From: Armatimonadota bacterium
Lineage (GTDB): Bacteria > Armatimonadota > UBA5829 > DTJY01
Length of the DNA: 64,000 nucleotides
Direction of reading: 5' to 3'
Assembly (NCBI GenBank): GCA_023511795.1
Contig: JAIMAU010000001.1
Coordinates: 202,384-266,383 of the forward strand
Shown: piece after piece, positions 16,671 to 64,000 of the stretch
How positions within the stretch are numbered: position 1 is the stretch's first letter
Layout: the number at the start of each line of letters is the position of its first letter
Program-made: the position numbers and the translations under genes
Notes under the pieces: generated by a model
Seen by the model: the letters and a program-made list of their open reading frames with translations, nothing else
Told to the model about the DNA's origin: nothing
Databases searched by the model: none

Positions 16671-16754
16671 GGGCGAGTGGTGGAATGGCAGACACGCTAG
16701 ACTTAGGATCTAGTGCCGAAAGGCGTAGGAGTTCAACTCTCCTCTCGCCCACCA
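16671..16754 (+). tRNA. tRNA-Leu (anticodon TAG)
   Basis: GGGCGAG pairs with CTCGCCC; the anticodon stem CTAGA/TCTAG encloses CTTAGGA; a long variable arm (TGCCGAAAGGCG) marks a class II tRNA; CCA is encoded. Length 84 nt. Confidence 0.96.
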
Positions 16755-16758
16755 AAAA

Positions 16759-16835
16759 GTACGAGGTATAGAGATCAAGAGAACAGCGTGTTCGATTCCC
16801 TAAAGCGCTGTGCTCGGTACTTGAATACCTTGTAC
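16759..16835 (+). other. Nested inverted repeats in tRNA spacer
   Basis: GTACGAGGTAT (759-769) pairs with ATACCTTGTAC (825-835) with one G-U, and inside it ACAGCG (783-788) pairs with CGCTGT (806-811). The inner loop contains GTTCGATTCCC, which looks like a tRNA T-arm loop. It may be an RNase processing structure or the decayed remnant of a fifth tRNA. Confidence 0.45.
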
Positions 16836-16844
16836 ACTAAGAAT

Positions 16845-16919
16845 GCGGGAGTGGTTCAGGGGTAGAACGCCACCTTGCCAAGGTGGATGTCGCGGGTTCG
16901 AATCCCGTCTCCCGCTCCA
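16845..16919 (+). tRNA. tRNA-Gly (anticodon GCC)
   Basis: GCGGGAG pairs with CTCCCGC; the anticodon stem CCACC/GGTGG encloses TTGCCAA; the T-loop is GTTCGAATC; CCA is encoded. Length 75 nt. Confidence 0.96.
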
Positions 16920-20496: not shown

Positions 20497-22917
20497 ATGG
20501 CGAAATCCCAAACAAAAGCAGGAAAAAGCAGGAGAGCAAGCAAGGAAGTTTCGCTTGAAGAGCAAACTGTTCCCTCATTGCCTGAAATACTACCAATGCT
20601 ACCAGTGCGGAATGAAGTTTATTTTCCGCACATGATATTTCCACTCTTTGTCGGGCGTGCAAAGTCAATTCGCGCGCTCGATGAGGCAATGGCTAGCAAT
20701 CGTTTTATTCTCCTTGTGGCGCAGAAACAAGTGGCGACCGACGACCCAGGGCCGGACGATACCTTCACCGTGGGTTTAATTGCTGAAATAATGCAGATTA
20801 TGCGGGTGCCCGACGGGACGGTTCGCGTAGTCCTCGAAGGTATCGAACGTGCTAGGATTACCGAATATCTGGAAACGGAGCCATTTTTCCTGGTTAAAGT
20901 TGAGCCACTGCCAACGCAAGAGGAGTACGGCCTCGAAATAGAGGCTCTTATGCGGAGCGTAACGGCGTTGTTCGAACAAATTGTCAACGTTGGCCGAAAC
21001 ATTCCGCCAGAGGCGCTCGTCAACGTTGTCAACATTACCGACCCAGGTCGCCTTGCCGATGCTATCACTCCTTATCTGCCACTGCGTGTCGAATCCAAGC
21101 AGGAAATCCTAGAAAGTACATCTGTGCGCGACCGACTGGATAAGCTCAATCTCCTTCTTAAGAAGGAAGTTGAAATCCTCGAAATTCAGCGCAACATTCG
21201 AAACCGCGTTGAAAAGGAGATGAGCGACACACAGCGTGAGTTCATTCTCCGTGAGCAGATGAAGGCGATTCAGCAAGAGCTCGGCGAACATGACGAGAGA
21301 TACGGCGAAATTGAGGAGTATAAAAGCAAGATAGAGGAAGCCTGCATGCCAGAAGAGGTTCGGGAGCGTGCAATGAAAGAGTTAGGACGGTTGGAGAAAA
21401 TGCCGTATGCTGCTCCCGAAGGCGTTGTAATTAGAACATACCTCGATTGGTTAATCTCATTGCCGTGGAGCAAGCGCACGGAAGATAACATTGACATACA
21501 GGAAGCTGCCCGCGTCCTTGATGAGGACCACTATGGCTTAATGAAAGCGAAGGAGCGCATCCTTGAGTTTTTGGCTGTCAAGCAGCTCTCAGGAGGTATG
21601 AAAGGTCCCATTCTTTGCTTTGTTGGGCCTCCAGGAGTTGGCAAGACATCCATAGGGCGCTCGATAGCCCGGGCTCTGGGACGGAAATTCATCCGAGTCT
21701 CACTTGGTGGAATTCGGGACGAAGCCGAGATACGCGGCCATCGGCGCACATATGTCGGCTCAATGCCAGGTCGAATAATTCAAGGCATAAAACAAGCGGG
21801 TTCGCGTAATCCAGTTTTTATGCTGGATGAAATTGATAAAGTTGGAGTGGACTTTCGAGGGGATCCTTCAGCAGCGTTGCTCGAAGCGCTTGACCCTGAG
21901 CAAAACTTCGCATTCAGCGACCATTACCTTGAGGTTCCTTTTGATCTTTCAGACGTAATGTTCATAACAACCGCAAACTTACTTGATCCTATTCCACCTG
22001 CATTGAAGGATAGAATGGAAGTTATTCCATTCTCAGGGTACACCGAAGATGACAAAATAAATATTGCAAAGCAGTTTCTTGTACCCAAACAAATTGCAGA
22101 ACATGGGCTGAAGCCAAAGCTTCTAAAAATCACTGATGAGGCCCTTTGCAAGATTATCAGAGAATATACTCGCGAAGCTGGCGTTAGAAATCTTGAGCGC
22201 GAGATTGCTTCTATCTGCCGCAAGGTAGCGAAAGAAGTAGCGGAAGGAAAGAATACGCAGACTAGAGTTACACCCAACAAAGTCAAGGATTACTTAGGGC
22301 AACCGAAATACCGCTATGGCATGGCAGAAGAGCATGATGAGGTTGGTGCGGCGACTGGCTTGGTTTACACCGAGTTCGGCGGAGACACAGTAAGCATCGA
22401 AGTAGGCCTTATGCGCGCCCAGGAAGGAAAGCTAATCCTGACTGGACAGCTTGGCGAAGTAATGAAAGAATCGGCGCAGGCGGCACTCTCTTATGTGCGG
22501 TCTAGGGCTGCGCAGCTTGACATCCCTGAGGATTTTCCAAATAATATGGATGTTCATATACATGTGCCTGCAGGTGCGATACCAAAGGATGGACCATCTG
22601 CTGGCATAACGATGGCAGCAGCTCTCGCATCGGCGCTAACCGGGCGGCCGGTGCGGCGTGATGTCGCAATGACCGGCGAGATTACCCTTCGCGGCAAAGT
22701 TCTTCCAATTGGCGGGCTCAAAGAAAAGGTTCTCGCAGCGCATCGCGCGGGTATACGAACTATAATTATTCCTAAGGACAACGTCAAGGACCTCGAGGAC
22801 ATTCCTGATTACGTTAGAGAGGAGCTAACCTTCAAGCCAGTTGAGCATGCAGACGAGGTTCTCGAGATTGCGCTTTTGAATAGCACAAAGAAACAAAAGA
22901 AAAGGGCAAAGGCTTAG
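20497..22917 (+). CDS. lon: ATP-dependent endopeptidase La (Lon)
   Basis: Homo-oligomeric AAA+ protease that removes misfolded and regulatory proteins. Of about 806 residues, the N-terminal substrate-binding domain starts at [19 protein letters not shown]. Next come a coiled-coil-rich region with [16 protein letters not shown], Walker [20 protein letters not shown], Walker [11 protein letters not shown], and the peptidase domain. The Ser-Lys dyad is seen in [12 protein letters not shown] and in [20 protein letters not shown] 20497 has GGAAGAGGA 7 nt upstream; the TTG at 20479 lies within the preceding T-rich stretch. The lon stop is immediately followed by the T-box leader of valS. Confidence 0.97.
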
Positions 22918-23271
22918 AAGGGGAGGAGTATGCGGCCGCGGCCTTCAGAGAGGAAAGTGTTTGGTGCGAACTTTCCGGAATCGAGTCGCAGAACGTCGCC
23001 CCAGAGCTGTCAGGCTGAGTCTCATCGTCGAATGTTGAGCCTGTCAAAGGCGTGAGGAAGCCGAAGCAGAGCAAAATTGCAAAAGAACTTCATGATTGCT
23101 TTCGATGACGGTGGGGTAAGGTTTTAAACCCCTAGGGATTAAGCCTGGCCGGGCAAGCCCGTTATAGCTAAAAACGAGGCCTGTTAATGTTTTACAATGG
23201 CAGGCGAATTAAGGTGGTACCACGGAAGAAGCTCCTTTCGTCCTTTAGGATGGAAGGAGCTTTGTGCTTTT
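22918..23271 (+). promoter_or_regulatory. T-box riboswitch controlling valS
   Basis: A tRNA-sensing leader. The distal part has the T-box sequence AATTAAGGTGGTACCACGG (23207-23225), whose TGGT would pair with the ACCA end of uncharged tRNA. A stem-III-like hairpin CGGGC-AA-GCCCG is followed by GTTATAGC. Stem I begins at GGGGAGGAGTA directly after the lon stop; the AGAGAG-hairpin with GGTGCGA (7-bp GGAAAGT/ACTTTCC stem) is typical. A GTC triplet at 22995-22997 in GAACGTC is the likely specifier, which reads valine and fits the downstream gene. Low tRNA-Val charging would favour the antiterminator. Confidence 0.88.
23229..23271 (+). terminator. T-box-associated intrinsic terminator
   Basis: A long stem pairs bases 23229-23243 with 23248-23262 (outer arm AAGCTCCTT, TTTA loop), followed by TGTGCTTTT. 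It competes with the antiterminator that contains the T-box sequence. Confidence 0.85.
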
Positions 23272-49282: not shown

Positions 49283-52200
49283 ATGCCTGACCGCTTCCCG
49301 GGAGGTTTTTCAATCTTAGTGGTTGGCTCTCGACTTCTATCTGTGCAGAAGACCTTTTGCCAGATTCTATTAATTATTGCCTCCATTTCTTACGCAGCTC
49401 CCGGACAGGTGTTAGACGATATTCTTAATTATGCAATCGTTGACCAGGTGTCCGGCGGTAAAGAACTTCGGCTCGAGGTGACCTCTGACTCCCCTATAGG
49501 ATATAGTTTTACCACAGGTGATAACGTCCACGAAATATTCCGCATAACTGTATGCCTTGATCAATCGCCTGAGCAATGGCAGTCTGGAGAAGCCGTGACC
49601 CTAACCTTGTGGGACTCGCAAGCAAAGTCCAGGAAGCTTGCTGAATATACCCTAAATGATGTAACCGTTAAGAACATATTGGGTGAAAATCCTTTCTATG
49701 TTCGTTCCCCAGCAGAGCCGAACAAAAACTACTATTTTGAGCTAACCCATAACGGCAAAGGCGATGGCAGAGCTGGGGTATATGCCGATGCGAATGGTAA
49801 TCTATTTTTTAAAGTGTTAGTCAAGCGCAGGGCTGACCATGAAACTTTGATGCGTGAGCTTTTCTCTGATTTTGACCTTGATGCGCCCGGCATGGAAAAG
49901 GTTAAATTAGCTGTCAAGGCGGAAGATTGGGAGCGAGCAATCAAAGAGACGGTTGCTCATTTTGATTCTCGGCCGCTTTCTCAGTGGCATGATTCTAAGA
50001 TAATGCCAAAGAAGAATCCACAGGCAAATTTCACCCCTGCCGAGAAAGCTCTAAGGCATGTGGTCGAGCACCAAGGCTTGGATTTCTATCTTGGTGAGCG
50101 CATAAACTGGTGGGCGAATCCTGTTCCTGGCAGAGGAGGTCTTGCCGAGTATCTTTGCAATTGGGGGCTTCCTAGAATCTTGGGCTACGCATATATAAAC
50201 AGCGGCGATGAAAAGTATGCAAAGAAGGCAAACGAGTTTTATGTTGCTTGGATGCTTGATAATCCACCGCCAACAAAACCAGGAGTTGACTGGGATAATG
50301 CTGCTTATTCAGGCCTTCAAATTGCGCGCAAGTTTGGCGGTAATGCTTGGTATTATTACGGAGAGTTGATGAAATCACCGAATCTTGAAACTGACACGCG
50401 CATGGCATTTATCCACTTCCAAATTCAATTTGGTAAACTCCTATACAGCGGTGTTACCAATGGCGGCCAGGGGTGGGGCGGCAATTGGGGATTTCAGGTA
50501 TACGATGCGCTTCTAAACAATGCGCTAGACAATCCCGAATACAAACATTGGCGCGAATGGGCGGATTTTGCTGTTAAGAAGCTTGTGGAGCTTTCGCATG
50601 AATCCTTATGCGCCGATGGCGTACTTAACGAAGCGGCGCCGAACTACCACGGTATTTGTGCACGCCGCCTAAAGTCGCTTCTCATCCGAGCAACTGAAAA
50701 GGGAATCCCCATTCCTTCGGATATGCGGGACATCTTGGGCAAAATGTATACCTTTTTAGGATACTTGACCCAGCCAAACGGAATGACGCCAATGTTTGGA
50801 GATTCCGACAGCGAGCACTATGCAGAGGAACTGTCTGAGGTGGCGAAGATTCTAGGCCGCCAAGATCTGGAGTGCTTTGCTACTCAAGGAAAGAAGGGGA
50901 AGCAGCCGTTCCCTATCTCTAATTGTTTTCCTTGCAGCGGCTATTATTTTATGCGCGGTAATTTTGAAGATTCAACCTACCTTGCCGTCCACAATGGCAA
51001 TTGGGTTGGCACGCATGGGCACTTCGACCTCACCGCTCCCGTAGTTTATGCGTTCGGTAGACCTCTGTTAGTCGATCCTGGCAGGTATAATTACTCAGCT
51101 GACCATGACTGGTTTTGGATTGCAAAAGCCCACAATGTTGTCTTGATAGACGGACGGAATTATGAGAATTATGGGCGCACGACAGAGTATTCTCACTGGG
51201 CTTCAACGAAGTTTATGGATTATTTCGATGGCCGCAATCGCTTTTATCAGCATACTGTAAGCGACCGGGAGATTATTTTCGTAAAGCCTGACTACTGGCT
51301 CGTGAGCGACCAGCTCTACTTTGATGGAAATCACAAGCTGGAACAGTATTGGCACTTCGCCCCCGGCGAGGTAAAGCTAAACTCACGCTTGGTCGCCGAA
51401 ACTACATACCCTAGCGGCGGCAACATTGCTGTTGTCCCCATACTCCGCGAAGGCCTAACTGCGCGGAAGAAGGACGGCTATGTTGCCTTCAAAGCCGGTG
51501 TGAAGGAAAACGCCCCAGTTGTTGTGTACGAAAAGCTTGCAAATGGCGAAACATCGCTGGCAACTCTTCTCTATCCCTGGAGGGTCGGGGAGGGCTGCAA
51601 AAGTGTTGCTGTCAAAAGTCTTATTCCGTTGGATGTTCCTGGTATTTATGCGTTTTCGGTTAAGACAGTTTGGGGCAAAGATTACATTGGATTGTGCCGC
51701 CCGTTGGAACCGAGTATCCGCAAAATATCATCGAGCGAATTTTCTGCAGTTGCTCGGGCATCGCTTGTCCGCATCCTAAGAGACGGCAGAGTTAAGGCAT
51801 TCTCGTGGGTTGAGGGGTCGGAGCTTTGGTTGGGAAACACTCTTCTCGCGAAGTCTGATAGGCAGATTGGCACATTGGATGTGGAGTACGATAATGGAAC
51901 ACTTCGCATCTGGTGCCGGGAAGAGGAGCCGTCCCTAAGAATAAATGGCGTAAAATGTTCGTTTGTCTCGATAAACGGTGGCCCACCGCGAAAGTTTTTT
52001 GGGGAGGTATGTTATCCATTTGCCGATAAGCCGAAAGCAGTTGTCGTGGATGACGCCGACCTTGGGTTTTCACGCATGGAAAGTCGGGAGTGGGGACCAA
52101 TGCCGGATGGCGAGCCGATTGGCATTTCATATCTTCAGCATGAAACCGACGTTGGGCGCAATGAATGGGCTGAGTGGAGGGTAATCTTACCTGAGACCGG

Positions 52201-52441
52201 CAAGTATGAAGTACAGGTTCACATCCCACGTTCGCTTCTGCCGCTCAGCCGTGAAGTAGAATATATTGTGAATAGCAGGTCGTCGCAGATTATAGACCAG
52301 CAAAAGAATGTTGGAAAATGGGTCGCGTTAGGCGTGTTTGATTTCAACGCAGGTGGTAATACTATTAAGGGCGTTAATCGTTCCAAAGAGGATGGTAAAT
52401 ACTTTGTAGCTGATGCCGTTAGATTTGTGAAGCAACGCTAA
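49283..52441 (+). CDS. Secreted heparinase II/III-like polysaccharide lyase
   Basis: About 1050 residues, exported. After a signal-like hydrophobic stretch (QILLIIASISYA|APG) comes a beta-rich N-domain, an (alpha/alpha) toroid with EYLCNWGLPRILGYAYINSG, then the heparinase II/III beta-sandwich core containing GNWVGTHGHFDLTAPVVYAF with a likely metal/catalytic His pair and YNYSADHDWFWIAKAHNVVL. The last 130 residues (from VVVDDADLGFSRM) resemble a golvesin C-terminal-type carbohydrate-binding module. Predicted to cleave uronate-containing polysaccharide. The start is uncertain: GTG 49232, ATG 49283 and GTG 49319 (behind GGGAGG) are all in frame; I choose the ATG. Confidence 0.8.
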   Translation: MPDRFPGGFSILVVGSRLLSVQKTFCQILLIIASISYAAPGQVLDDILNYAIVDQVSGGKELRLEVTSDSPIGYSFTTGDNVHEIFRITVCLDQSPEQWQSGEAVTLTLWDSQAKSRKLAEYTLNDVTVKNILGENPFYVRSPAEPNKNYYFELTHNGKGDGRAGVYADANGNLFFKVLVKRRADHETLMRELFSDFDLDAPGMEKVKLAVKAEDWERAIKETVAHFDSRPLSQWHDSKIMPKKNPQANFTPAEKALRHVVEHQGLDFYLGERINWWANPVPGRGGLAEYLCNWGLPRILGYAYINSGDEKYAKKANEFYVAWMLDNPPPTKPGVDWDNAAYSGLQIARKFGGNAWYYYGELMKSPNLETDTRMAFIHFQIQFGKLLYSGVTNGGQGWGGNWGFQVYDALLNNALDNPEYKHWREWADFAVKKLVELSHESLCADGVLNEAAPNYHGICARRLKSLLIRATEKGIPIPSDMRDILGKMYTFLGYLTQPNGMTPMFGDSDSEHYAEELSEVAKILGRQDLECFATQGKKGKQPFPISNCFPCSGYYFMRGNFEDSTYLAVHNGNWVGTHGHFDLTAPVVYAFGRPLLVDPGRYNYSADHDWFWIAKAHNVVLIDGRNYENYGRTTEYSHWASTKFMDYFDGRNRFYQHTVSDREIIFVKPDYWLVSDQLYFDGNHKLEQYWHFAPGEVKLNSRLVAETTYPSGGNIAVVPILREGLTARKKDGYVAFKAGVKENAPVVVYEKLANGETSLATLLYPWRVGEGCKSVAVKSLIPLDVPGIYAFSVKTVWGKDYIGLCRPLEPSIRKISSSEFSAVARASLVRILRDGRVKAFSWVEGSELWLGNTLLAKSDRQIGTLDVEYDNGTLRIWCREEEPSLRINGVKCSFVSINGGPPRKFFGEVCYPFADKPKAVVVDDADLGFSRMESREWGPMPDGEPIGISYLQHETDVGRNEWAEWRVILPETGKYEVQVHIPRSLLPLSREVEYIVNSRSSQIIDQQKNVGKWVALGVFDFNAGGNTIKGVNRSKEDGKYFVADAVRFVKQR

Positions 52442-52551
52442 AATAGGCTTTTTGTGACAAGAATGTTCGGGGAGTAATCCTAAAAATTGCATCTGGTATT
52501 TCTAAGCCGCATAGCTTGCAAGAGCAAAGAGCTTAGGATGGATTAAAGAGG

Positions 52552-52731
52552 ATGAAGACAGCCGAATTAGTTCTTCTCGTAGTGCTTATTATTGCGCTTT
52601 ATGTAGTTTCGAGCAGATGGCGTCCGGATGAGCCTGTATTACTTGGAGCACGCGTTTCTTTCTGGCTTGGATTGGCAGCCGCCCTATTGGCTATAATACT
52701 AATTGCGCTAAGCAAGTCGAGGCAATTTTGA
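52552..52731 (+). CDS. Predicted 59-residue small membrane protein
   Basis: This short ORF encodes two hydrophobic segments, about 5-19 (AELVLLVVLIIALYV) and 36-53 (SFWLGLAAALLAIILIAL), separated by a polar, Arg/Asp-containing loop. It starts ATG 52552 with an AGAGG immediately ahead, so spacing is poor, and another weak purine site about 14 nt upstream. It follows the heparinase gene by 110 bp, and CTAAGC (52502-52507) pairs with GCTTAG (52531-52536) in that gap. It is probably a real small membrane protein. I recognise no family. Confidence 0.45.
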   Translation: MKTAELVLLVVLIIALYVVSSRWRPDEPVLLGARVSFWLGLAAALLAIILIALSKSRQF

Positions 52732-52870
52732 AGAGCACAGCGGTTAGATACTCACTATTCCCGCCGGTAACGGCCGTTGGGGTGTTTGAGTTGCGATTCG
52801 CTAGGCCTTAAACGCAGATAGACTTGTGAACGCTAAGGGCGAAGGAGTCCCATACGCCAGCAGTTGAATT
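52732..52870. other. Intergenic region, no gene seen
   Basis: GC-rich arms around GCCGGTAACGGC (about 52770) form a small stem; no T-run or promoter is obvious. Confidence 0.35.
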
Positions 52871-54280
52871 CTATTCCAGCCCGTATTTCTCCCGTATGTA
52901 TTTGTCTATGCCCCTTGCCGCAATCTTGCCCGCGCCCATTGCCGAGATGACAGTTGCCTCGCCGGTAACCGCATCGCCCCCTGCGAAAACGCCTGGAATT
53001 GAGGTCATCCCAGTCTCAGGGTCAATAATTATGCCTCCCCAACTCTCCGTCTCTAACCCTTCCGTCGTCTGGCGAATCAGTGGGTTTGGGTTCTGCCCAA
53101 GAGCAACAATCACCATGTCGCATTCAATCTCGAACTCCGACCCTTCGACGGCGATGGGACGCCGTCTGCATGATTCGTCCGGCTCGCCAAGCTCCATGCG
53201 AAGGCATTCCATCGCCCTCACGGCGCCGTTGTCGTCGCTTATAAAGCGCTTTGGGTTTGTTAAAAGCTGGAAAACAACGCCCTCCTGCTCGGCATTTTCG
53301 ACCTCTTCCGCACGAGCAGGCATCTCAGCGCGGCTTCTTCGATAGACAATCATTACTTTCTCGGCGCCAACCCGCAGAGCTGTTCTAGCACAGTCCATTG
53401 CTGTGTTTCCCGCACCCACAACGCAAACCTTCTTCGGTTTCTTAAGTGGAGTGGCGTAGTCATCTCTATGCGCCCTCATTAGATTGATTCTAGTGAGCCA
53501 TTCATTGCCGGAGTAGATGCCAGAAAGATTCTCCCCAGGTATACCCAAAAGTTTCGGAGCGCCTGCACCTGTCCCGATGAATACTGCATCATAGCCCTGC
53601 TCTAATAGAGCATTCAGCCGAAACGTGCGGCCGATGATTACGTTTGTTAGGAAGGTGACGCCAAGCGATTTAACGTAGTCTATCTCGCGGTCCAACACTG
53701 CGCGGGGGAGTCTAAACTCCGGGATGCCATATCTTAGGACTCCGCCCAGCTTGTGAAGCGCCTCGAATATCGTGACAGAATAGCCCATCTTTGCAAGGTC
53801 GCCGGCAACCGTGAGTCCCGCAGGGCCGCTCCCTATTACAGCAACGTGGTACTTCGATAGTTCGGGGTTCGATGGCTTTGGGACGTCGAAAGGATTAGCA
53901 CAAGCCGCTTCATAATCGGCGGCAAATCGTTCCAACCGACCAATTGCGACGGGCTCATATTTCCTAGCAAGAACGCAGACCTTCTCGCATTGTTCCTCCT
54001 GCGGGCAAACTCTTCCGCATATCGCAGGAAGAGAGTTCGTCTTTTTTATCTCGCGCGCCGCTCCAATGTAATCTTTGTTCTTGATTAGCTCAATGAACTT
54101 CGGGATGTCAATATTCACGGGGCAACCGGCGACGCAAGGTTTCTTGGGGCAATTCAAACATCGCGCAGCTTCCGCCAAAGCTAGCTCCTCAGTGTAACCA
54201 AGAGCGACCTCGTCGAAGTTTTTAATCCTAACCGCGGGATCTTGTTGCGGCATCGGGTTTCGGGGTTTTGTCTCTGCCAT
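52871..54280 (-). CDS. GltD/SudA-like NADPH oxidoreductase subunit (NfnB type)
   Basis: A 469-residue flavoprotein of the glutamate synthase small-chain family. The N-terminal Fe-S domain has CLNCPKKPCVAGCP and CGRVCPQEEQCEKVC; the FAD motif is GSGPAGLTVAGDLAKMGY and the NADPH motif GAGNTAMDCARTALRVGAE. No GltB-type large chain is present. With the adjacent SudB-like gene it forms the pair typical of sulfide dehydrogenase or NfnAB transhydrogenase (NADH-dependent reduced ferredoxin:NADP+ oxidoreductase). The start ATG directly abuts the partner's stop, with AGGAAG inside it, so the two are translationally coupled. Confidence 0.92.
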   Translation of the reverse strand: MAETKPRNPMPQQDPAVRIKNFDEVALGYTEELALAEAARCLNCPKKPCVAGCPVNIDIPKFIELIKNKDYIGAAREIKKTNSLPAICGRVCPQEEQCEKVCVLARKYEPVAIGRLERFAADYEAACANPFDVPKPSNPELSKYHVAVIGSGPAGLTVAGDLAKMGYSVTIFEALHKLGGVLRYGIPEFRLPRAVLDREIDYVKSLGVTFLTNVIIGRTFRLNALLEQGYDAVFIGTGAGAPKLLGIPGENLSGIYSGNEWLTRINLMRAHRDDYATPLKKPKKVCVVGAGNTAMDCARTALRVGAEKVMIVYRRSRAEMPARAEEVENAEQEGVVFQLLTNPKRFISDDNGAVRAMECLRMELGEPDESCRRRPIAVEGSEFEIECDMVIVALGQNPNPLIRQTTEGLETESWGGIIIDPETGMTSIPGVFAGGDAVTGEATVISAMGAGKIAARGIDKYIREKYGLE

Positions 54281-55174
54281 TTACTTCCTAGCTCCATCAA
54301 CAAGTGCGTTAGCGTTGGCTTTGTTTTCTTCGTCAAAGTAGTATGCTTTTCGCGCCCTGAGTTCATCCCAGTCCACTTGATGGGCATCGAAATCAGGGCC
54401 GTCTACACATGTGAACATCGTCTTTCCGCCGACTGTTACCCGACAGCCGCCGCACATCCCCGTGCCGTCAATCATAATCGGGTCGAGGCTTACGATTGTC
54501 TTAACGCCGTAAGGTTGCGTCGTCATTGCAACAGCTTTCATCATCGGAAGTGGGCCAGCGGCGAATACCATGTCAACTTTTTGAGATTCAAGGAGTTCGC
54601 TGAGCGCATCCGTTACTAATCCCTTGCGCCCATATGAGCCGTCATCGGTGGTGATGATGAGCTCGTCGGCGATTTTTCGCATCTCGTCCTCAAGCAAAAT
54701 TAGCGATTTCTCGCGTGCGCCAACGACGACGATTAGTTTATTATTCGCCTTCTTTAGTGATTTAGCAATTGGGTACGCAATGGCAGTCCCAACGCCCCCT
54801 CCAACAACAACGGCGGTGCCGAAGTTGTCAATCTCCGTCGGCTTTCCAAGCGGTCCGGCAATGCTTGCAATGTCTTCACCTTCTTCAAGCTGTCCGAGCT
54901 CCTTTGTGCTGAAGCCGACCTCTTGGAAGATAATCGTAATTGTGCCCTTGTCAACGTCCCAATCGCATATTGTGAGAGGCACGCGCTCACTCTTTTCGCC
55001 AACCCAAACCATAACAAACTGCCCAGCTCTTGCCGCACGTGCGATTAGCGGGGCTCTTATCTCCATGCGGGTTAATGTGGGCGAGAGCTTCTCCTTCTGA
55101 ACTATCGTGTTCCTAAGTTCATCTGGCGTCAAACCAGCAAGCTTGCATGCCGCCGGATATTCTTTCTCGTTCAT
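54281..55174 (-). CDS. SudB/NfnA-like FAD/NAD-binding subunit
   Basis: A 297-residue ferredoxin reductase-like protein of the dihydroorotate dehydrogenase electron-transfer subunit family. Recognised are an FAD-binding RAGQFVMVWVG, an NAD-binding VVGGGVGTAIAYPIAKSL, and the C-terminal [2Fe-2S] motif DGTGMCGGCRVTVGG followed by FTCVDGPDFDAHQVDWDEL. It likely joins the NfnB-type partner in an electron-bifurcating or sulfide-oxidising complex. The N-terminus is about 22 residues longer than usual, but ATG 55174 has an AGGAGG site and is well placed. It is expressed from the promoter at 55211-55239. Confidence 0.92.
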   Translation of the reverse strand: MNEKEYPAACKLAGLTPDELRNTIVQKEKLSPTLTRMEIRAPLIARAARAGQFVMVWVGEKSERVPLTICDWDVDKGTITIIFQEVGFSTKELGQLEEGEDIASIAGPLGKPTEIDNFGTAVVVGGGVGTAIAYPIAKSLKKANNKLIVVVGAREKSLILLEDEMRKIADELIITTDDGSYGRKGLVTDALSELLESQKVDMVFAAGPLPMMKAVAMTTQPYGVKTIVSLDPIMIDGTGMCGGCRVTVGGKTMFTCVDGPDFDAHQVDWDELRARKAYYFDEENKANANALVDGARK

Positions 55175-55210
55175 GAACTCCTCCTGCGCTGAAAACCGCG
55201 TCAGCAGAAA

Positions 55211-55239
55211 ATTCTACAACTCACTTGCATTTTTTGCAA
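55211..55239 (-). promoter_or_regulatory. Promoter for the SudB-SudA-like pair
   Basis: On the minus strand, TTGCAA (55239-55234), 17-bp spacer, TAGAAT (55216-55211). It lies 37 bp ahead of the SudB-like start. Confidence 0.65.
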
Positions 55240-55433
55240 TCCCCCTCGCATGGAAAGACGCAGATAGATTCGTTTTGGCGTGGAATAATTCGAGGTTAGA
55301 GAGGCGGGCAAACTATATGGCGGTTTGTTGTTCTGAATTCAAATACTAGCAAAATTGGCGCAGTTTGCGGCGGCTTTTGTACGGCTTTCGGCGAACTTCG
55401 ATTAGCCGAGGTTCATACAATTTCGGGCAGAAT

Positions 55434-56795
55434 CTAAGCCTTTAGTATTTGCGAATCCTTATGTGGGGCGCTGCTCGGCGGCATTAAGTCGGCTTGCTGT
55501 CCCTGTTCGATGCCTAGTTTTTTCAGCCAGTTTATAATCCTACGCCGATATGCCGTGTTTAGTGCAATTGCAGCAAACCGCAGTTTTAGTGCAGGACCAA
55601 GTCTGCGGAGTATGGAGCTGGTAGAATATACTTGGCGGTAGGCATTTCGCAGTCCCTCGAGTAGCGCTTCTGGTTTCAGACGCGCCGGCTTGTATACGAC
55701 GTGGGCACCATCGTAATGACTCCAGTTCTTATCTATTATCCTGCCTTCCGATTCAAATTCGCGAAAAATCCGCGTCCCTGGGAACGGAGTCAAAATTGAA
55801 AATTGCGCCGCATCAATCTTTGCGCGGTTTACAAATTCAACGGTTCTTTCGAATACACTTTGATCGTCTTCGTCAAATCCGAAAATAAAGGCGGCAAGAA
55901 CGGCAATTCCCACATCATGAAGCCGAGCAACTACTTCCTTATAGTTTGTCTTGGTGTTGATAGTTTTTCCTATGTTTTTCAAAGTGTCGTCGGAAAGCGT
56001 CTCCATCCCAATGAAAAGTCCCATACATCCACTTTCGGCGGCTAATGACATTAGCTCCGGGTGCTTAAGCATACTAAGCGAAGCCTGTCCAAACCATTGC
56101 TTTTTCAACGGTTTTAGGGCTTCGAATAATTTCTTTGCATAGGCAGGATGTCCCATTATGTTGTCGTCCACAATTAGAATAAGGTTTCCCGGAAGCGATT
56201 GGATTTCTTCCACAACGCCTTGCACAGGCCTCATACGATATGTGCGGCCAAAGAAAGAGGTTACTGAGCAGAATGAACAGTTGAAGGGACATCCGCGAGT
56301 AGTTTGCACTGTGTATGCAAAAAGGTAGTATTTTGCATCAACTAGGTCGCGCCTGGGTGAAGGGATGCATTCCGGGTTTGGACGGTCGTCGCTTGCATAG
56401 AATTTGCGCAGTTCGCCCCGGCGAAAGTCTTCGATTACTGCCTCCCATTTTCCCTCTGCTTCACCAATTACTACGGCGTCTGCATGATTCGCTGCTTCCT
56501 CGGGCAGTGCTGTGGCGTGGACTCCCCCAATGACTACGCACTTTCCGCGTTCTCGAAAGCGGTCGGCTATTTCGTATGCTCTATTTGCCGCCGCTGTTGT
56601 GGCTGTTATGCCAACTAAATCGGCGTCTGTATCAAAATCTACGGGCTCTACCGATTCGTCAATGAGTTCGACCTCAACGTCTTCGGGGGTCAGCGATGCC
56701 ACTGTCATAAGCGATAACGGAGGAAAAAGAGGTTTCGGATCTTCTTCGTAGGATTTCTCTTCCTCCATTCGGGGCGCTATTAATGTTGCTTTCAT
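55434..56795 (-). CDS. B12-binding-type radical SAM protein
   Basis: A 453-residue protein with an N-terminal B12-binding-like Rossmann domain (ITATTAAANRAYEIADRFR, then VVIGGVHATALPEEA; the DxHxxG cobalamin ligand motif is not seen) and a radical SAM core with the cluster motif TRGCPFNCSFCSV. Members of this class modify lipids, natural products or cofactors. The substrate is unknown. The C-terminus has a helical region of moderate conservation. Its ATG overlaps the stop of the upstream radical SAM gene by 4 bp, so they are coupled and probably act in one pathway. Confidence 0.88.
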   Translation of the reverse strand: MKATLIAPRMEEEKSYEEDPKPLFPPLSLMTVASLTPEDVEVELIDESVEPVDFDTDADLVGITATTAAANRAYEIADRFRERGKCVVIGGVHATALPEEAANHADAVVIGEAEGKWEAVIEDFRRGELRKFYASDDRPNPECIPSPRRDLVDAKYYLFAYTVQTTRGCPFNCSFCSVTSFFGRTYRMRPVQGVVEEIQSLPGNLILIVDDNIMGHPAYAKKLFEALKPLKKQWFGQASLSMLKHPELMSLAAESGCMGLFIGMETLSDDTLKNIGKTINTKTNYKEVVARLHDVGIAVLAAFIFGFDEDDQSVFERTVEFVNRAKIDAAQFSILTPFPGTRIFREFESEGRIIDKNWSHYDGAHVVYKPARLKPEALLEGLRNAYRQVYSTSSILRRLGPALKLRFAAIALNTAYRRRIINWLKKLGIEQGQQADLMPPSSAPHKDSQILKA

Positions 56796-58156
56796 TTTTG
56801 TTCATCTCCTTTCGCCCAATCATAGCCTTGTTCCCAAGGTATGCTGGCGATTGCCTGGTATGCCTTTGCGTAGTTGTCAAGCTCAGGAGCAAGGGTGGTG
56901 AGAAGTGCTTCGCCGCCATCAGTTGCAAACGCGTTGTACTTGCATACAACTTCTCTCAAGATGTGTGGATTGTCTATTATCATGCAGGGCGTAAGGTGGT
57001 TCTCGTTGAAAGGCTGTTTCTTCCGAATTGCACGGAAGAACTCCGAGTCTAGGGCTTCTTTCAAAGACTTACTGCGTATGTTGTCAACCGCAAAGTGTGA
57101 GAACACGCAGGGTTCCACGTCGCCCCTGTGGTTAATGTGGGCGTAGAGCCTGCCTCCAGCCATGCAGCCCCTGGTGAGAGGCCCGTCGTTCCAAAAGTCG
57201 CCGACGAATATCGGCCGTGTGCGTCTTATCTCCAGCGTGCGAGCGCGAAGGCGGTCGCGTTGCTCCGGGGTCGGCATAAGGTCAATCGATGGGTTCTTTC
57301 CTATGGGAATGTATGTGAAGAACCAGCCGAAGTAAGCCCCCTGTTCGATGTAGTAGTCGATGAATCTTTCGTCGGTCAAGATGTCTACATTGCGGCTGGT
57401 CGCTGTTGCAGAGAATCCGTAAATGCATCCATTGGCTTTGAGGGCTTCCATTGCCGCGATTATCTTCTTGTGAGCGCCTTTCCCCCGCCGCTCATCTGTT
57501 TCCTGCTCGAATCCTTCGACGCTTATGGCGGGAACGACGTTGCCAAGCTCGCCCAGCACTTTTGCGGTCTCTTCGTCTATTAGTGTGCCATTTGTGTAGA
57601 TTTGGAACGCAACGTCATTGTGCTTTTTGTATATCTCTAGTAGGTCTTTGCGGATAAATGGCTCCCCGCCAGATATAGTGATGAAGTGGATGCCCATTTC
57701 TTTTGCTTCGGTTACTATTCTGTCTACCTCTTCCGTGGTCAGTTCTTCTTTTTGGTCATACGCTCCAGCGTAGCATCCCCAGCATCTAAGATTGCATCTC
57801 ATCGTTGGACTGATGACAAGAAGGAAGGGCGGATAGTAGCCATGGAGGGCTTCGAATTGCTTCCGCTTTTCTGCGCCTTCCCAGGCTCCTCGAACAAAAA
57901 GGTTCATTATTACACCCTCGCGGACCTTGGGACTGATGTCGCGCAAGACCCTGCGAGCAAGTTCAATGGACGGATGACCTTGCTCGAAGAGGTCCCTAAT
58001 CCATGCAATCTGCTTCTTGTGTTCGGGATGCCGTGCAACAATTTCTGCTGCACGTGTTATCTTGATAATGCTGTCGTCGGAGAACTTGCTCAAAAGTGCG
58101 AGCATTTGCTTTAAGGCGAATGAACGACTCTTTGTCGCAAGAGCTGGTCTGTTCAT
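56792..58156 (-). CDS. Radical SAM protein with SPASM-like C-terminal cysteines
   Basis: A 454-residue radical SAM protein. An N-terminal helical part (about 1-100) precedes the cluster motif ISPTMRCNLRCWGCYAG and the ISGGEPF segment. The C-terminal part has additional cysteines (TRGCMAGG, VEPCVFSHF, LTPCMIIDN, EVVCKYNAFA) that may ligate auxiliary Fe-S clusters, as in SPASM or twitch proteins. Substrate unknown; the coupled B12-type partner suggests a two-step modification. ATG 58156 has a GGGGG site about 10 nt upstream. The 1.27-kb region upstream holds the 21-bp palindrome array. Confidence 0.86.
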   Translation of the reverse strand: MNRPALATKSRSFALKQMLALLSKFSDDSIIKITRAAEIVARHPEHKKQIAWIRDLFEQGHPSIELARRVLRDISPKVREGVIMNLFVRGAWEGAEKRKQFEALHGYYPPFLLVISPTMRCNLRCWGCYAGAYDQKEELTTEEVDRIVTEAKEMGIHFITISGGEPFIRKDLLEIYKKHNDVAFQIYTNGTLIDEETAKVLGELGNVVPAISVEGFEQETDERRGKGAHKKIIAAMEALKANGCIYGFSATATSRNVDILTDERFIDYYIEQGAYFGWFFTYIPIGKNPSIDLMPTPEQRDRLRARTLEIRRTRPIFVGDFWNDGPLTRGCMAGGRLYAHINHRGDVEPCVFSHFAVDNIRSKSLKEALDSEFFRAIRKKQPFNENHLTPCMIIDNPHILREVVCKYNAFATDGGEALLTTLAPELDNYAKAYQAIASIPWEQGYDWAKGDEQK

Positions 58157-58896
58157 GCTTTATTGCCCCCTTTTGTCCCTTGGTTGTAGGTTAAGCAACT
58201 AATTTCTAGTTCCATGGATAGCCTAGGATATCCTTTTCTAAGCGCTAACTGCCGCGTCCAAAGAACCTCCTCCCGATATTTGCAGATTCCGGGCTGGGTT
58301 TGGCTTTGGTTGTTTGTCTGACGCATGTCTTCTTACTTTGTTTGTTATTTACCCCAAACATGCATTATTTATGAGTAGAAAAACCTAATTCCCATAATTT
58401 GTCAAGCACCATTGGTGAAAGCCAGCGGTTGATTCAGCAAAAACAGTCATAAGGAGTATACCCAATAAATCTGTGCTGACAACCATATAGCGCCGCCCAA
58501 GTATTTATGCCGACTTCGCTATTTGGCTGTTGCTCCTCGCTGCGCAGCGAATTGGGATTTGCACGAAGGACTGGACGCTGTGCATGTCGAGATATTGGAA
58601 AGGTGCCGCCGACTGCAGTTTTGGGCTTGCGGCTTTCACCTATTCTTGTTCGCCGTTCGAATAGTGACGAAAACTGCAAACAAAGCAATTGTAAATGCGG
58701 TTGGCGCGTTCAAAAAAGTTCATTAAGCGCTAAACAGCGTGCGCTTCGCCTTTGTCTAATTAGGAAGAGTTTGAGATTTTGTTGGATTAGGTGCTCTTTT
58801 TCTACCCACTTTCTTGCTTTTTTTACTCTTTTATTGCATGCTTGTTGCCATTTTTGCAGAGGTTTATCAGCCGATTGCAAACTTTGATGTGAGGTG
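58157..58896. other. Intergenic region upstream of radical SAM operon
   Basis: No convincing gene on either strand. A TTGACA on the minus strand (plus-strand TGTCAA at about 58400-58405) has no good -10; a perfect 11-bp palindrome CACCATTGGTG lies next to it at 58407-58417. Short ORFs between 58434 and 58887 have no start signal or family resemblance. Confidence 0.5.
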
Positions 58897-59039
58897 GTAC
58901 AAAAGTTTTGTACGTTTGTACAAAACTTTTGTACAGTCGTACAACACTTTTGTACTTCGATACAACACTTTTGTACCGCGGTACAACATTTTTGTACCGC
59001 GGTCTAAAAATGTTGCACAGTTGTACAACATTTTTGCAC
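58897..59039. repeat. Array of seven 17-bp palindromes with 21-bp period
   Basis: Seven units start at 58897, 58918, 58939, 58960, 58981, 59002 and 59023, exactly 21 bp apart, each a 17-bp palindrome around the consensus GTACAAAACTTTTGTAC, with 4-bp non-conserved spacers. Units 1-2 are perfect or near-perfect; units 3-5 and 7 have 1-2 arm mismatches. Unit 6 is an inverted, degenerate copy (its reverse complement resembles unit 7). A degraded eighth copy may follow at 59044. Because the period is seven codons, open frames with heptapeptide repeats run through both strands, but variation follows the DNA palindrome. It looks like a multi-site operator/iteron array or an RNA hairpin array. Confidence 0.85.
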
Positions 59040-59427
59040 AACGGCGCAAAGTCGTTGTTTCAGCGGCTAACTTAATCGAAAATGCGCTGATTTAAGATGG
59101 TGTGCTTGTAGTTTTTGTGCTAGATGAGTCTAATTTATTTGGGCATTTGCCTTTTCTTTTTTGCAAAAGATATGGTTTGGTTTGGCTAATTGATTTTGGT
59201 TTGGTTGGGCGGAAGGCGTGTTTGGGAGGGCATTGCGAAGAATCCCCCCGCTTGGCGGTATTGGTTGGAGGGCTTAGCTTGGTTTTGCCTGCCTTTGAGC
59301 AGGGGGATTCGCTTTGGCTTATTTTGGTTGTGAGCGGCTTCCGCCTAGTTGTTTGGTTTTCTGTGAACCTGCGACGGTGCTTGCCGCCCGATGCTGGACC
59401 CTGCGTTTGCCTTCGGGGATTGCTCTT
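59040..59427. other. GT-rich intergenic region with inverted repeat
   Basis: The + strand is rich in G and T with repeated TTTGG words (about 59168-59210). GAATCCCCC (59240-59248) pairs with GGGGGATTC (59302-59310) over a 53-nt loop. No ORF is supported. Confidence 0.45.
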
Positions 59428-60387
59428 TTACTTTGATGGCTTTTTCTTCAGCAAATGTTTGTCGAAGAATGCGTCTATCTTTTCGTCAACATCGGGTCGC
59501 GAGGGCCACCCGTGTTTTCCACCTTTCACTATGTAAATGTGAGAGTCGACTCCCGCTTTTCTCAGCACGTCGTGGAGCAATTGGCTTTGGCTGTGCGGAG
59601 TTAGGGGGTCGTTGTCTCCGTGGAAGATGTAGAACGGCGGGTCGTCTTTTGATGCGTATGTCGTTGGGCTGGCTTTCCGACAGAGTTCTGGGTTCTCCCA
59701 GAAGGGTCCACCGAGGAGCCCCGAGGCTGAATCTTTCCCGTCGTGAATCATAAAGCGCTCGGTTGCTTTGCCTTGCTTCACCAACTCTTCTATCGCTAGG
59801 AAGTCCGTCATTCCATAGAAGTCTACAACGGCTTGAACGCGGCTGGAATATTCTTGCCAGCCTCCGTTGCCTTCGAATTCCTCTATTCCGCCGGTTGTAC
59901 CAAGCATGGACACGAGGTAACCGCCTGCGGAAGCGCCCCAAACGCCTATCCTTTCGGGGTCTAGGTTGTACTTTTTTGAATGTGCGCGGAGGAACCGAAT
60001 TGCACACTTGCAGTCGTGGATTTGCGCTGGGAATATCTTTTCGGTACTGAATCTGTAGTCGATTGTAACGCCCAAGTATCCGCGTCTAACGAAGCGGATG
60101 AGGCGCGGATAGCCGGATGTCTTGCTTCCACCGCGGAACCCTCCGCCGTGTATCCAGACTATTACGGGCATAGGGTCTTTTGACGGCTTCTTTAGGCGGA
60201 GAATGTCCAATCTGTGCTTCTCGTTTCCGTCGAGGCTGTAGGGGATGTCTTTTATTAGCTCGATGTCGTCGGGTATTTGGAACTCGGACTTTGTTGGCGC
60301 GGTTTGCTTTTCGGTTGCAGGAACGACCGCGGCAATTGCTATTGAGATTAAGGCGAAGATTAGGGCGAACGAGGTTGTTGTGTACAT
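59428..60387 (-). CDS. Secreted alpha/beta hydrolase, esterase-like
   Basis: A 319-residue carboxylesterase of the BD-FAE/HSL-like group. A signal peptide (MYTTTSFALIFALISIAIAA) is followed by the oxyanion motif IHGGGFRGG, the nucleophile elbow GASAGG, the acid in DNDPLTPHS and the catalytic His in KGGKHGW. Candidate substrates are acetyl or feruloyl esters of plant polysaccharides; in line with the lyases and glycosidases upstream, this is inference. It is one member of a tandem pair with 60389-61366; the pair is separated by 1 bp and shares about one half of its motifs, so it arose by duplication. Confidence 0.9.
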   Translation of the reverse strand: MYTTTSFALIFALISIAIAAVVPATEKQTAPTKSEFQIPDDIELIKDIPYSLDGNEKHRLDILRLKKPSKDPMPVIVWIHGGGFRGGSKTSGYPRLIRFVRRGYLGVTIDYRFSTEKIFPAQIHDCKCAIRFLRAHSKKYNLDPERIGVWGASAGGYLVSMLGTTGGIEEFEGNGGWQEYSSRVQAVVDFYGMTDFLAIEELVKQGKATERFMIHDGKDSASGLLGGPFWENPELCRKASPTTYASKDDPPFYIFHGDNDPLTPHSQSQLLHDVLRKAGVDSHIYIVKGGKHGWPSRPDVDEKIDAFFDKHLLKKKPSK

Positions 60388-60388
60388 T

Positions 60389-61366
60389 TTACTTCTTCCT
60401 TTCCTTTAGGTGCTTGTCGAAGAAATCCATAACCAATTTATCGGGTTCAGGGCTTTTGAAGCCGTGCCCTGCACCTTTCACGATGTGGAGCGTGCATTCA
60501 ATTCCGTTTTTCTTGAGAGCTTCGTAGAATGCCTTGCTTTGGCTGAGGGGGACGAGGTCGTCATTTTCGCCATGCGCGATAAAGAACGGCGGATCTTTTT
60601 TATCGATGTAGGTAGTGGGGCTGGCTTTCTTCGCAACGTCAATTTTCTTGGAGAAAGGTCCGCCAAGGAGTTTGGAGATTGCTCCATTTGCGCGCTTTCG
60701 CTCTAGCTCTTCGATGTTAAATCCTTTTTTCTTCGCCTCTTCTGCCCAATATAGGAAGTCAGTGGGACCGAAGTAATCGGCGACAGCTTGGACTTTGCTA
60801 GAGAACTTTTCCCATCCGCCGTTCCCTTCAAGTTCTTTCACGCCGCCTGATGTACCTAAGAGGGCGACGAGGTGGCCGCCGGCGGAGGAGCCCCAAGCGC
60901 CGATGTGATTGGAATCAACGTTGTAATCTTTGGCGTGGGCGCGGAGCCACCGAACAGCACATTTGCAGTCCTCGATTTGAGCGGGGAACGGGGCCTTATC
61001 GGTGAGGCGGTAATTAATTGTAACGCAGAAGTACCCGTTTTGGGCGAGTGGGATGATTTTTCGAATGCCTGCCTCTTTGCTTCCACTTTGCCATCCCCCG
61101 CCGTGAACAAAGATAACGGCTGGCATTGGTTTGATGGACGGGCGTTTTGGGCGGACAATGTCGAGTGTGAGAGGTTCGTCCCCGCCTTTACCATATTCCA
61201 CGTTGCGTATGATTTCGATGTCGGCTGGGATGGCTAGTCTAGGGGCAAGCGCCTGAAGGCACAAAGCTGGGTTATTGGAGTTCAGACAAGCGGCACAGGC
61301 GAGCAAGAAAACGAGAATGGCGAGCGTCCACCTTACATATGGGCTGTAGCTTGTTCGATTAGTCAT
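60389..61366 (-). CDS. Exported alpha/beta hydrolase, paralogue of the next gene
   Basis: A 325-residue esterase-like protein. The N-terminus has a membrane or signal segment (WTLAILVFLLACAACL), perhaps lipoprotein-like because of its Cys, then VHGGGWQSG (oxyanion), AWGSSAGGHLVALLG (nucleophile Ser), ENDDLVPLSQ (acid) and KGAGHGFK (His). It is the upstream gene of the tandem pair. A lid region that differs from its partner (EEAKKKGFNIEELERKRA) suggests a different ester substrate. No strong Shine-Dalgarno is visible for its ATG. Confidence 0.88.
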   Translation of the reverse strand: MTNRTSYSPYVRWTLAILVFLLACAACLNSNNPALCLQALAPRLAIPADIEIIRNVEYGKGGDEPLTLDIVRPKRPSIKPMPAVIFVHGGGWQSGSKEAGIRKIIPLAQNGYFCVTINYRLTDKAPFPAQIEDCKCAVRWLRAHAKDYNVDSNHIGAWGSSAGGHLVALLGTSGGVKELEGNGGWEKFSSKVQAVADYFGPTDFLYWAEEAKKKGFNIEELERKRANGAISKLLGGPFSKKIDVAKKASPTTYIDKKDPPFFIAHGENDDLVPLSQSKAFYEALKKNGIECTLHIVKGAGHGFKSPEPDKLVMDFFDKHLKERKK

Positions 61367-61501
61367 TTTGGCATCGCGCTCCCTTGTTGGTGCTGTTTGC
61401 TTTTTGTGTTGTTTGGGCCTATGGAATGTTCAGTTGGGCTGAACAGCTTGGTTGCGGTTGCTTATGTTTAGCGTATGATAACCCCAAGAGTAGGGAATTG
61501 T
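61367..61501. other. Intergenic region, hairpin only
   Basis: TGTTCAG (61427-61433) pairs with CTGAACA (61439-61445), 7 bp over a 5-nt loop, without a T-run. Confidence 0.4.
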
Positions 61502-62398
61502 CTAGTCATTTGTCATCCTGCGTTTCAATTCGTTGATGCTTTCTTCGAATCCGAGTAGGGGGGTGCGAAGCTGTTTGACAGTATTTGAAACGTCGAGCAC
61601 AAGTATTTTGGAGCGGTTGGCAATTCCTGGAGAGGAGTCCATATACATTGGTTCGATTAGCGATTTAGGGAGATTGAAGACCTCTGCAATTTTCAGTGCC
61701 CACTCGAGGCGTGAGACGACGTTGGGGCACTCGACGTGGAAGATGCCGGTGAGTCGGCGTTCGACAATCTCGAGGCAAGCGTCGGCAAGATTCCATGCAG
61801 GGATTGGGCACCGATATTGGTCTGCGTAAGCTTTGATTCTATTGCCTGCCTTAAGAGCGTCGATTATTTTGTCGGAGAAGGATTCTTGGAAGGGGAACTT
61901 ACGCGGGCCGAAGATAATTGATGTGCGAACGATAGCCCAGCCGGCGTTTGAGGTAGCAACGGCCGCTTCCGCCGCGGCTTTGGTTAGACCGTAGTAGTTG
62001 GGTGGGGAAAGCGTGTCGTTTTCCTTATAAGGGTTTTTCTCGCCGTTGAAGACGGTGTCGGTGGATATGTGAACGAGGTGGGCGCCAATTTTCTCTGCGG
62101 CGCGGACAATGTTAAAAGTTCCGATGACGTTGGATTCGAAAGCCGTGAGTTTATTTTGCTCGCAGAAGTCGGGTTTTGCTTGTGCGGCGGTGTGGATAAT
62201 TGCGTTGGGCGAGGCGCTGGCGATTACCTCTAGCACTCGTTCGGCGTCCGAGAGCTCTAGTTGAACCGTTCGGCAGCCTGGCAGTTCGATGGCGTTTCGT
62301 CTATACGAGGCCGTGACGTCCCAACCTTTTTCCGCCGCTTGAACGGCCGCATAGCTCCCGAGCATGCCGCTTCCGCCTGTGATGAAAAGCTTTTTCAT
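61502..62398 (-). CDS. dTDP-4-dehydrorhamnose reductase-like (RmlD family)
   Basis: A 298-residue short-chain dehydrogenase of the RmlD/extended-SDR type. It has the Rossmann start TGGSGMLGSYAAVQ, AAQAKPDFCEQN and the catalytic YYGLTK (Tyr-x3-Lys) near PPNYYGLTKAAAEAA. The other rml genes are absent here, so the substrate could be a different NDP-sugar. It directly follows an intrinsic terminator: the ATG lies only 9 nt beyond the T-run and has no Shine-Dalgarno, so expression may depend on read-through or on a leaderless-type start. Confidence 0.87.
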   Translation of the reverse strand: MKKLFITGGSGMLGSYAAVQAAEKGWDVTASYRRNAIELPGCRTVQLELSDAERVLEVIASASPNAIIHTAAQAKPDFCEQNKLTAFESNVIGTFNIVRAAEKIGAHLVHISTDTVFNGEKNPYKENDTLSPPNYYGLTKAAAEAAVATSNAGWAIVRTSIIFGPRKFPFQESFSDKIIDALKAGNRIKAYADQYRCPIPAWNLADACLEIVERRLTGIFHVECPNVVSRLEWALKIAEVFNLPKSLIEPMYMDSSPGIANRSKILVLDVSNTVKQLRTPLLGFEESINELKRRMTND

Positions 62399-62406
62399 AG
62401 GCTGTC

Positions 62407-62436
62407 AAAAAGGGCCTCGGCATCCCACCAAGGCCC
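62407..62436 (-). terminator. Intrinsic terminator of the sugar ABC ATPase gene
   Basis: On the minus strand GGGCCTTGG (62436-62428) pairs with CCGAGGCCC (62420-62412), 9 bp with one G-U, followed by TTTTT (62411-62407). It lies between the ATPase stop and the RmlD-like start. Confidence 0.82.
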
Positions 62437-62467
62437 TGTTTAATCCTCTAATCTTTTTGCAAAGGTT

Positions 62468-63574
62468 TTAATAAATTGCCGCCTCGGTTTCGGGATCGAA
62501 GAGATGGCTTTTTTCCATGTCAAAGACGATTTCCATTTCGCTTGCTTCTTTTGCCTTTGTGTCGGCGTCAATTGTAGCGACTAGGTTGTGGTTTCCAGTC
62601 GTGAGGTACATTGTGCAAACGGGGCCCATGGGCTCTATAACATCTACCAGGGCTTTGATAGTATTTTCCTCGGTGGGTTTCACTAGGGGGCTGAGGGCTT
62701 TATCGAAGATGTCTTCTGGGCGAATGCCGAAGATAACCTTCCTACCGACGTATGATTCGAATTTACCATTTTTCGATTCGGGAATTACCACTTTGAAGCT
62801 TCCGGCATCAACGACGTATCTGTCGCTAGCTTTCAGGAGCGTTGCTTCGATGAAGTTCATAGCCGGCGTACCGATGAAGCCAGCGACGAACATGTTTGCG
62901 GGGTTGTTGTATAAGCCGAGAGGTGTGTCTACTTGCTGAACAACCCCGTCGCGCATGACGGCAATTCGGTCACCCATTGTCATTGCTTCGACTTGGTCGT
63001 GGGTTACATAGATAGTAGTTATTCCGAGCCGTCGGTGCAATTTGATGAGCTCGGCGCGGGTTTGGACGCGGAGCTTTGCATCAAGGTTGGATAGGGGTTC
63101 GTCCATGAGGAAGACTTTTGGTTCGCGGACAATAGCACGGCCAAGTGCCACTCTCTGCCTTTGACCGCCGGAAAGCTGCTTTGGCTTGCGGTCGAGCAGG
63201 TCGGTAAGGCCGAGCATTTGTGCGACTTCGGCGACGCGCTTCTTGATTTCTTGCTTGGGGACTTTGCGAAGTTTCAGCCCAAATGCCATATTGTCGTAGA
63301 CGCTCATATGTGGATAGAGCGCATAGTTTTGGAAGACCATGGCAATATCTCGGTCTTTGGGCGAAACGTCGTTTACGAGGCGGTCTCCGATGTATATCTC
63401 GCCCTCGGTGACTTCTTCGAGTCCCGCAATCATTCTAAGCGCTGTCGTCTTTCCACAACCGGAAGGGCCAACGAGGACAAGGAATTCCTTATCCTTTATT
63501 TCAAGATTCATATTTTTGACCGCGACGACAGTCTTAAAAGTCTTGGTTAGGTTCTTTAGTATGACGCCGGCCAT
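62468..63574 (-). CDS. ABC transporter ATP-binding protein, UgpC/MsmK-type
   Basis: A 368-residue ATPase of the CUT1 family that energises sugar importers. Walker [18 protein letters not shown]-loop, signature [15 protein letters not shown], Walker [13 protein letters not shown] and H-loop are all present, and the C-terminal TOBE domains contain GIRPEDIF. Such ATPases often serve several permeases at once; no permease or binding protein is adjacent. ATG has an AGGAGGT site. It is driven by a promoter at 63623-63652 and ends at the terminator at 62407-62436. Confidence 0.95.
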
Positions 63575-63622
63575 ATTATGGCGTACCTCCTCATGCTGTT
63601 TCAGGAAAATTTGCGATAATCA

Positions 63623-63652
63623 ATTATAGTTAAGGCCCTCACTTCTTGTCAA
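63623..63652 (-). promoter_or_regulatory. Strong sigma70-type promoter of the ABC ATPase
   Basis: On the minus strand TTGACA (63652-63647), 18-bp spacer, TATAAT (63628-63623), 48 bp upstream of the ATG. Confidence 0.85.
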
Positions 63653-63709
63653 CGGATGCAGGTTAATAAGGGAATTGGAAATTGGGATAGCGGAAACCAT
63701 GACTGTGAG

Positions 63710-64000
63710 TTAAATGTGCGGCTGTATTTTTTCAACAATCTGATTTTTTGGCACTGCGCCCACAATTGTTTCAATGACATTCCCGCTTTTGAAGAGCATT
63801 AAGGTAGGGATGCTCATTATTCTGAATTGCGCGGCGACCAATGGGGACTGGTCTACATTAACCTTGGCAACCTTGAGCTTTTCCTCGTAATTTTGTGCTA
63901 CTTCTTCTACGATGGGTGCAATCATTCGACAAGGTCCACACCATGGTGCCCAAAAGTCAACAAGGACTGGGGTGGTGGATTGCAGAACTTCCTGCTCGAA
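63710..64000 (-). CDS. trxA: Thioredoxin, partial (5' end outside window)
   Basis: The 3' part of a thioredoxin; the reading frame is open to the window edge. Reading toward the stop it contains the dithiol WCGPC inside [13 protein letters not shown], then the conserved [10 protein letters not shown] cis-Pro loop. A canonical ~110-residue TrxA would lack about 13-15 N-terminal residues here. It is the cytoplasmic general disulfide reductase. Confidence 0.92.

Follow-up and report, generated by a model that had tools for sequence, protein, structure and literature searches.

Palindromic 21-bp repeat arrays at four unlinked loci in an Armatimonadota genus, a probable minisatellite family

The window analysed here, a 64,000-nucleotide stretch of contig JAIMAU010000001.1 from an Armatimonadota bacterium (assembly GCA_023511795.1), contains a run of short intergenic palindromes at perfectly regular spacing, and the question that it raises is what keeps such an array regular: a protein that binds it, an RNA made from it, or the way in which the DNA itself is copied. 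The array (array W, 58897-59039) has seven units, each a 17-bp palindrome or quasi-palindrome, starting at 58897, 58918, 58939, 58960, 58981, 59002 and 59023. Every step is 21 bp, and the repeat unit consists of the 17-bp quasi-palindrome and a 4-bp linker. The units and their surroundings are as follows.

56792-58156, - strand: radical SAM/SPASM protein, its start 740 bp from array W
58157-59427, no strand: array-bearing intergenic region, 1.27 kb; aligned flanks gap-free against the sister species, with 91.3% and 87.4% identity
58897-58913, + strand: unit 1, GTACAAAAGTTTTGTAC, perfect palindrome, spacer GTTT
58918-58934, + strand: unit 2, GTACAAAACTTTTGTAC, perfect palindrome, spacer AGTC; counterpart in the sister species GTGCAAAACTTTTGCAC, a symmetric double change
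58939-58955, + strand: unit 3, GTACAACACTTTTGTAC, spacer TTCG
58960-58976, + strand: unit 4, ATACAACACTTTTGTAC, spacer CGCG
58981-58997, + strand: unit 5, GTACAACATTTTTGTAC, spacer CGCG
59002-59018, - strand: unit 6, GTCTAAAAATGTTGCAC as read on the + strand, core inverted relative to the other units, spacer AGTT
59023-59039, + strand: unit 7, GTACAACATTTTTGCAC, spacer AACG
59044-59060, + strand: decayed eighth unit, GCGCAAAGTCGTTGTTT, in the same 21-bp register; GTACAAAGTTGTTGTTC in the sister species
59428-60387, - strand: BD-FAE family alpha/beta hydrolase, its 3' end towards array W

The consensus GTACAAAANTTTTGTAC is matched by six of the seven units with no more than two mismatches, whereas in 100 dinucleotide-shuffled versions of the whole window, with up to three mismatches allowed, the matches average 0.37 and do not exceed 2. 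The seven palindromes at exact 21-bp spacing described in the original prediction are thus real, and unit 6 is inverted as had been stated, its core AAAAATGTT being the reverse complement of AACATTTTT, with a GTCT arm. Calling the units palindromes is strictly correct for units 1 and 2, in which all eight dyad pairs are intact (8/8); the remaining units have 5-7 of 8, with one to three pairs broken. Nor are the spacers all different as claimed, since in order they read GTTT, AGTC, TTCG, CGCG, CGCG, AGTT and then AACG, with CGCG present twice. The register extends into the degenerate eighth unit, which is clearer in the sister orthologue.

The array had also been placed upstream of a radical SAM operon. 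It does lie upstream of the radical SAM/SPASM start, but the alpha/beta hydrolase is closer, with the array 388 bp past its 3' end. A second radical SAM/SPASM copy with 45% identity (G000:C1:461788-463062) is present in both species of the genus. Elsewhere the window contains four clustered tRNA genes (Arg, Lys, Leu and Gly; 16352-16919) and a T-box leader (22906-23248; Rfam RF00230, 106.8 bits).

Array W is not alone. Searched by pattern, the window's genome proves to have four arrays, at unlinked intergenic sites and with 28 units in total; the other three are the following.

C5:33624: locus B, 4 units
C5:91852: locus C, 8 units
C12:46414: locus D, 8 units

The one other genome of the genus compared, that of a sister species, has arrays at the same four sites with 36 units in all; the two genomes are in 35 and 30 contigs, and assembly could affect the array lengths. 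Of 289 further genomes of the phylum that were searched for a two-unit pattern with up to three mismatches, none contains it, and the sister's array used as a DNA query has no match in the class's 26 remaining genomes. Plasmids, phages and IMG/VR (the last searched with exact patterns only) give no array match, and a phage or plasmid origin was set aside. A scan of GTDB species genomes recovers ten stretches without a long array among them; they have two or three close GTACAA/TTGTAC dyads, mainly in Burkholderiales, and include one Clostridia sequence listed twice. The close Burkholderiales dyads are ~20 bp apart, with a start codon just downstream in several records, and these pairs look like two-site operators unrelated to array W.

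No DNA is common to the four loci outside the arrays, and the other between-locus protein matches are to common families such as sulfatases. The genes downstream of the arrays are likewise unrelated, encoding the radical SAM/SPASM protein, a NifS-like desulfurase, a 689-aa protein without a family match, and a 218-aa hypothetical or Gfo/Idh protein; no regulator was recognised among the array neighbours scanned. The search of related genomes for such sites and their neighbouring genes that had been proposed as a check yields arrays at four sites in each of two genomes of one genus, with no adjacent gene shared between the sites that could account for them. The radical SAM and desulfurase genes that adjoin arrays lack close orthologues in the family's other genera. 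As to the linkage expected of parS sites or iterons, the dnaA gene and both parB-like genes are on array-free contigs of an unordered assembly. Literature searches found no description of this repeat element, in agreement with the initial impression that it corresponds to no standard form.

Comparison of the two species separates the arrays sharply from the DNA around them. At all four loci the flanks, compared over 10.7-17.5 kb, have 93.6-94.7% identity, and the intergenic DNA beside the arrays has 271 substitutions and 0 indels in 2298 columns. Outside the arrays, ~59.6 kb of alignment (L011-L013 and window positions 50090-64000 against L023-L026) contains 3266 substitutions versus seven tiny indel events. 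The arrays themselves differ in length between the species by +42, +84, +42 and 0 bp, always in whole units. Flanks and most edge units remain orthologous, the first units differing by one base at locus B and two each at C and D, but by six at W, and the interiors are species-specific. The sister has 12 junctions of the form TTGTCC-CTCG/CGCG-GTCTAA, distributed over all four loci, with the TTGTCC-CTCG-GTCTAA type at every one; TTGTCC is never found at a junction in the window's genome, where TTGTAC-TTCG/CGCG-GTACAA predominates. The mean distance between interior units is 4.13 per 21 bp between loci within a species versus 5.05 at the same locus between species. Among the 8 distinct ways of assigning the species labels, the true one has the top score, the strongest result obtainable with two genomes, for which the floor is p = 0.125. 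Judged from the sequences of these two species, arrays at unlinked loci show concerted evolution.

These comparisons also bear on two arguments by which the array had been interpreted. The first, that the palindrome is kept while the spacers are free to vary, and should be seen to be so at orthologous loci, fails in the sister, where many interior units are GTCTAACATTTTTGTCC with only 4/8 pairs, the mean number of dyad pairs in the interiors is 5.5/8 versus 6.56/8 in the window's genome, and the spacer CTCG has spread together with the units. The second took the 21-bp period as evidence of helical phasing. This is weak: duplication of units preserves the period, and with indels so rare here generally, as the gap-free flanks illustrate, the exact spacing is not independent evidence of function.

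We consider it somewhat better than an even chance that array W belongs to a family of palindromic minisatellites peculiar to the genus, with four dispersed members homogenised by copying. Slippage or unequal exchange would add and remove units, and variants would pass between arrays by gene conversion, a process that fits the appearance of the same new junctions, spacer included, at four loci better than parallel selection does. The palindromic unit, through a hairpin or cruciform, may itself promote template switching that flips centres and matches arms. Switching of the polymerase template between inverted repeats is reported in PMC8604942 to leave centre inversion and arm matching as its marks. 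At locus B the sole difference between the species in the first unit is the central G/C; at locus C the same centre flip is accompanied by one changed spacer base; and unit 2 of array W shows a matched change, from GTAC..GTAC to GTGC..GCAC in the sister. These flips, the symmetric change and the inverted core of unit 6 all fit template switching. The 21-bp period would persist through copying of whole units and the scarcity of small indels in the lineage. The arrays would then most likely be maintained by copying and not by a strict sequence requirement, with any effect on neighbouring promoters secondary. Against this explanation, copying accounts for no origin of the repeat at four unlinked loci, and the gene conversion invoked would act between tracts of only 80-206 bp, as deduced from two genomes.

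The main rival, which is not exclusive of a self-homogenising minisatellite and which we rank behind it as a possibility only, is that the arrays are phased multi-site operators or architectural arrays upstream of promoters, where a dimeric protein might bind the dyads cooperatively. The dyads concerned could be TTGTAC-N4-GTACAA, GTACAA-N5-TTGTAC or both, alternating every 10.5 bp on one face of the DNA. Such a platform might conceivably control the gene downstream or have a part in chromosome organisation, and concerted evolution of the arrays is compatible with it. The period is indeed 2 x 10.5 bp, with dyads in both frames (6.56/8 and 6.75/8 in the window's genome). All four arrays are upstream of at least one gene and share one orientation, antisense to that gene, an arrangement expected by chance 1 time in 8 and one that also counts against a by-product of copying. 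Moreover, a lone dyad, TGTTGTAATCCTTTACAACA, is found at locus B in both species between a TTGACA promoter-like site and the Cys desulfurase start. This site (L011:8422-8441; G000:C5:33421-33440) is ~180 bp from array B, is identical in the sister, and precedes the TTG start of the NifS-like cysteine desulfurase gene; an operator is one possible role for it, and a hairpin close to the ribosome-binding site another. A second isolated dyad, at C8:36491, is inside a long open reading frame and was taken as chance. With the exception of the one site in locus B, isolated sites outside the arrays are not above chance, and the recurrence at other, functionally related promoters that a regulon would show was looked for and not found. 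The unrelated downstream genes, the decay of the sister's interior dyads, the absence of arrays from the other genomes searched in the phylum and the lack of a recognisable regulator among the scanned neighbours all argue against binding as the primary explanation.

A combination of the two, which we regard as improbable, would be a system peculiar to the genus that writes the phased dyads at selected promoters and keeps them uniform, with some protein binding the arrays while linked copying holds the four in step, the DNA specificity of the protein coevolving with them. The GTAC arms of one species and the GTCC/GTCT arms of the other would then, on this doubtful reading, be matched specificities.

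It is very unlikely that the array acts as RNA, transcribed as a chain of hairpins in a leader or trailer. The predicted fold is very stable (z = -10.9), and at some junctions a 6-bp stem is capped by a C(UUCG)G loop, but folding is expected of any array of palindromes. The sister array at locus B, the single one of that species tested against shuffles, folds more weakly and with different pairing (z = -5.0), and departures of the G-U type are equal on both strands. The best promoter-like site at locus B is between the array and the gene, which would put the array upstream of the transcript. Rfam, in addition, gives no family match at the arrays, and a known RNA was rejected as an identity.

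Intrinsically curved DNA produced by phased A-tracts upstream of promoters seems remoter still. Tracts of A4-N-T4 or T4-5 do recur every 21 bp, but the curvature, calculated with a wedge model that behaves correctly in the A4T4/T4A4 check, is mild in most arrays; that of the window has a ratio of 0.869, with 17 of 200 shuffles as curved, and only the sister's locus C is extreme.

Least likely of all is that these are REP/BIME-type elements moved by a Y1 (RAYT) transposase, since for all that the units are intergenic, palindromic, clustered and in some cases inverted, Y1_Tnp (PF01797) is absent from both genomes in a search that is positive in 5 of 14 control genomes, and the four arrays amount to only 28 and 36 units in the two genomes, below the usual REP number, which PMC2817692 gives as more than 100 copies per genome. 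Two further identities were discarded, as the original prediction had anticipated: a protein repeat, because the similarity between arrays at different loci extends over several frames and both strands, the flanking open reading frames also being without clear codon-position bias, and a CRISPR, because the spacers are 4 bp long and recurring (TTCG, CGCG, CTCG) instead of the unique ~20-50 bp expected.

If the copying explanation is correct, these arrays of 80-206 bp would preserve in a small space a natural record of gene conversion and of template switching at palindromes, with concerted evolution visible between species whose flanks are ~94% identical and in a lineage that otherwise has very few indels. 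Should the arrays also bind a protein, they would form a promoter-linked satellite family with joint turnover of sites, in which coevolution of site and protein is directly testable.

Among known systems, multi-operator arrays and iterons resemble these loci as non-coding DNA in which dyads recur in constant helical phase; they differ in that the present arrays have no regulon in common and no recognised regulator or replication gene beside them, and that the sister's dyads are not strictly kept. The quasipalindrome tracts shaped by template switching (PMC8604942, PMC8794818) share the centre inversions and matched double changes, but these papers appear to treat single inverted repeats or RNA hairpins, whereas the present repeats form tandem arrays at several loci. 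The BIME/REP elements of enterobacteria and Pseudomonas are likewise short intergenic palindromes in regularly spaced clusters with some units inverted. The clusters of intergenic palindromes are found here too, but without the copy number or the Y1/RAYT transposase, there being only four arrays, mostly in one orientation, of a 17+4 bp unit within one genus. With bacterial minisatellites or VNTRs these arrays share tandem head-to-tail units and changes of whole-unit copy number between close relatives, and they differ from them in the palindromic unit, the four unlinked loci, and variants homogenised between those loci. The arrays fit the minisatellite description, and it is the combination of a palindromic unit with homogenisation across four unlinked loci that is unusual.
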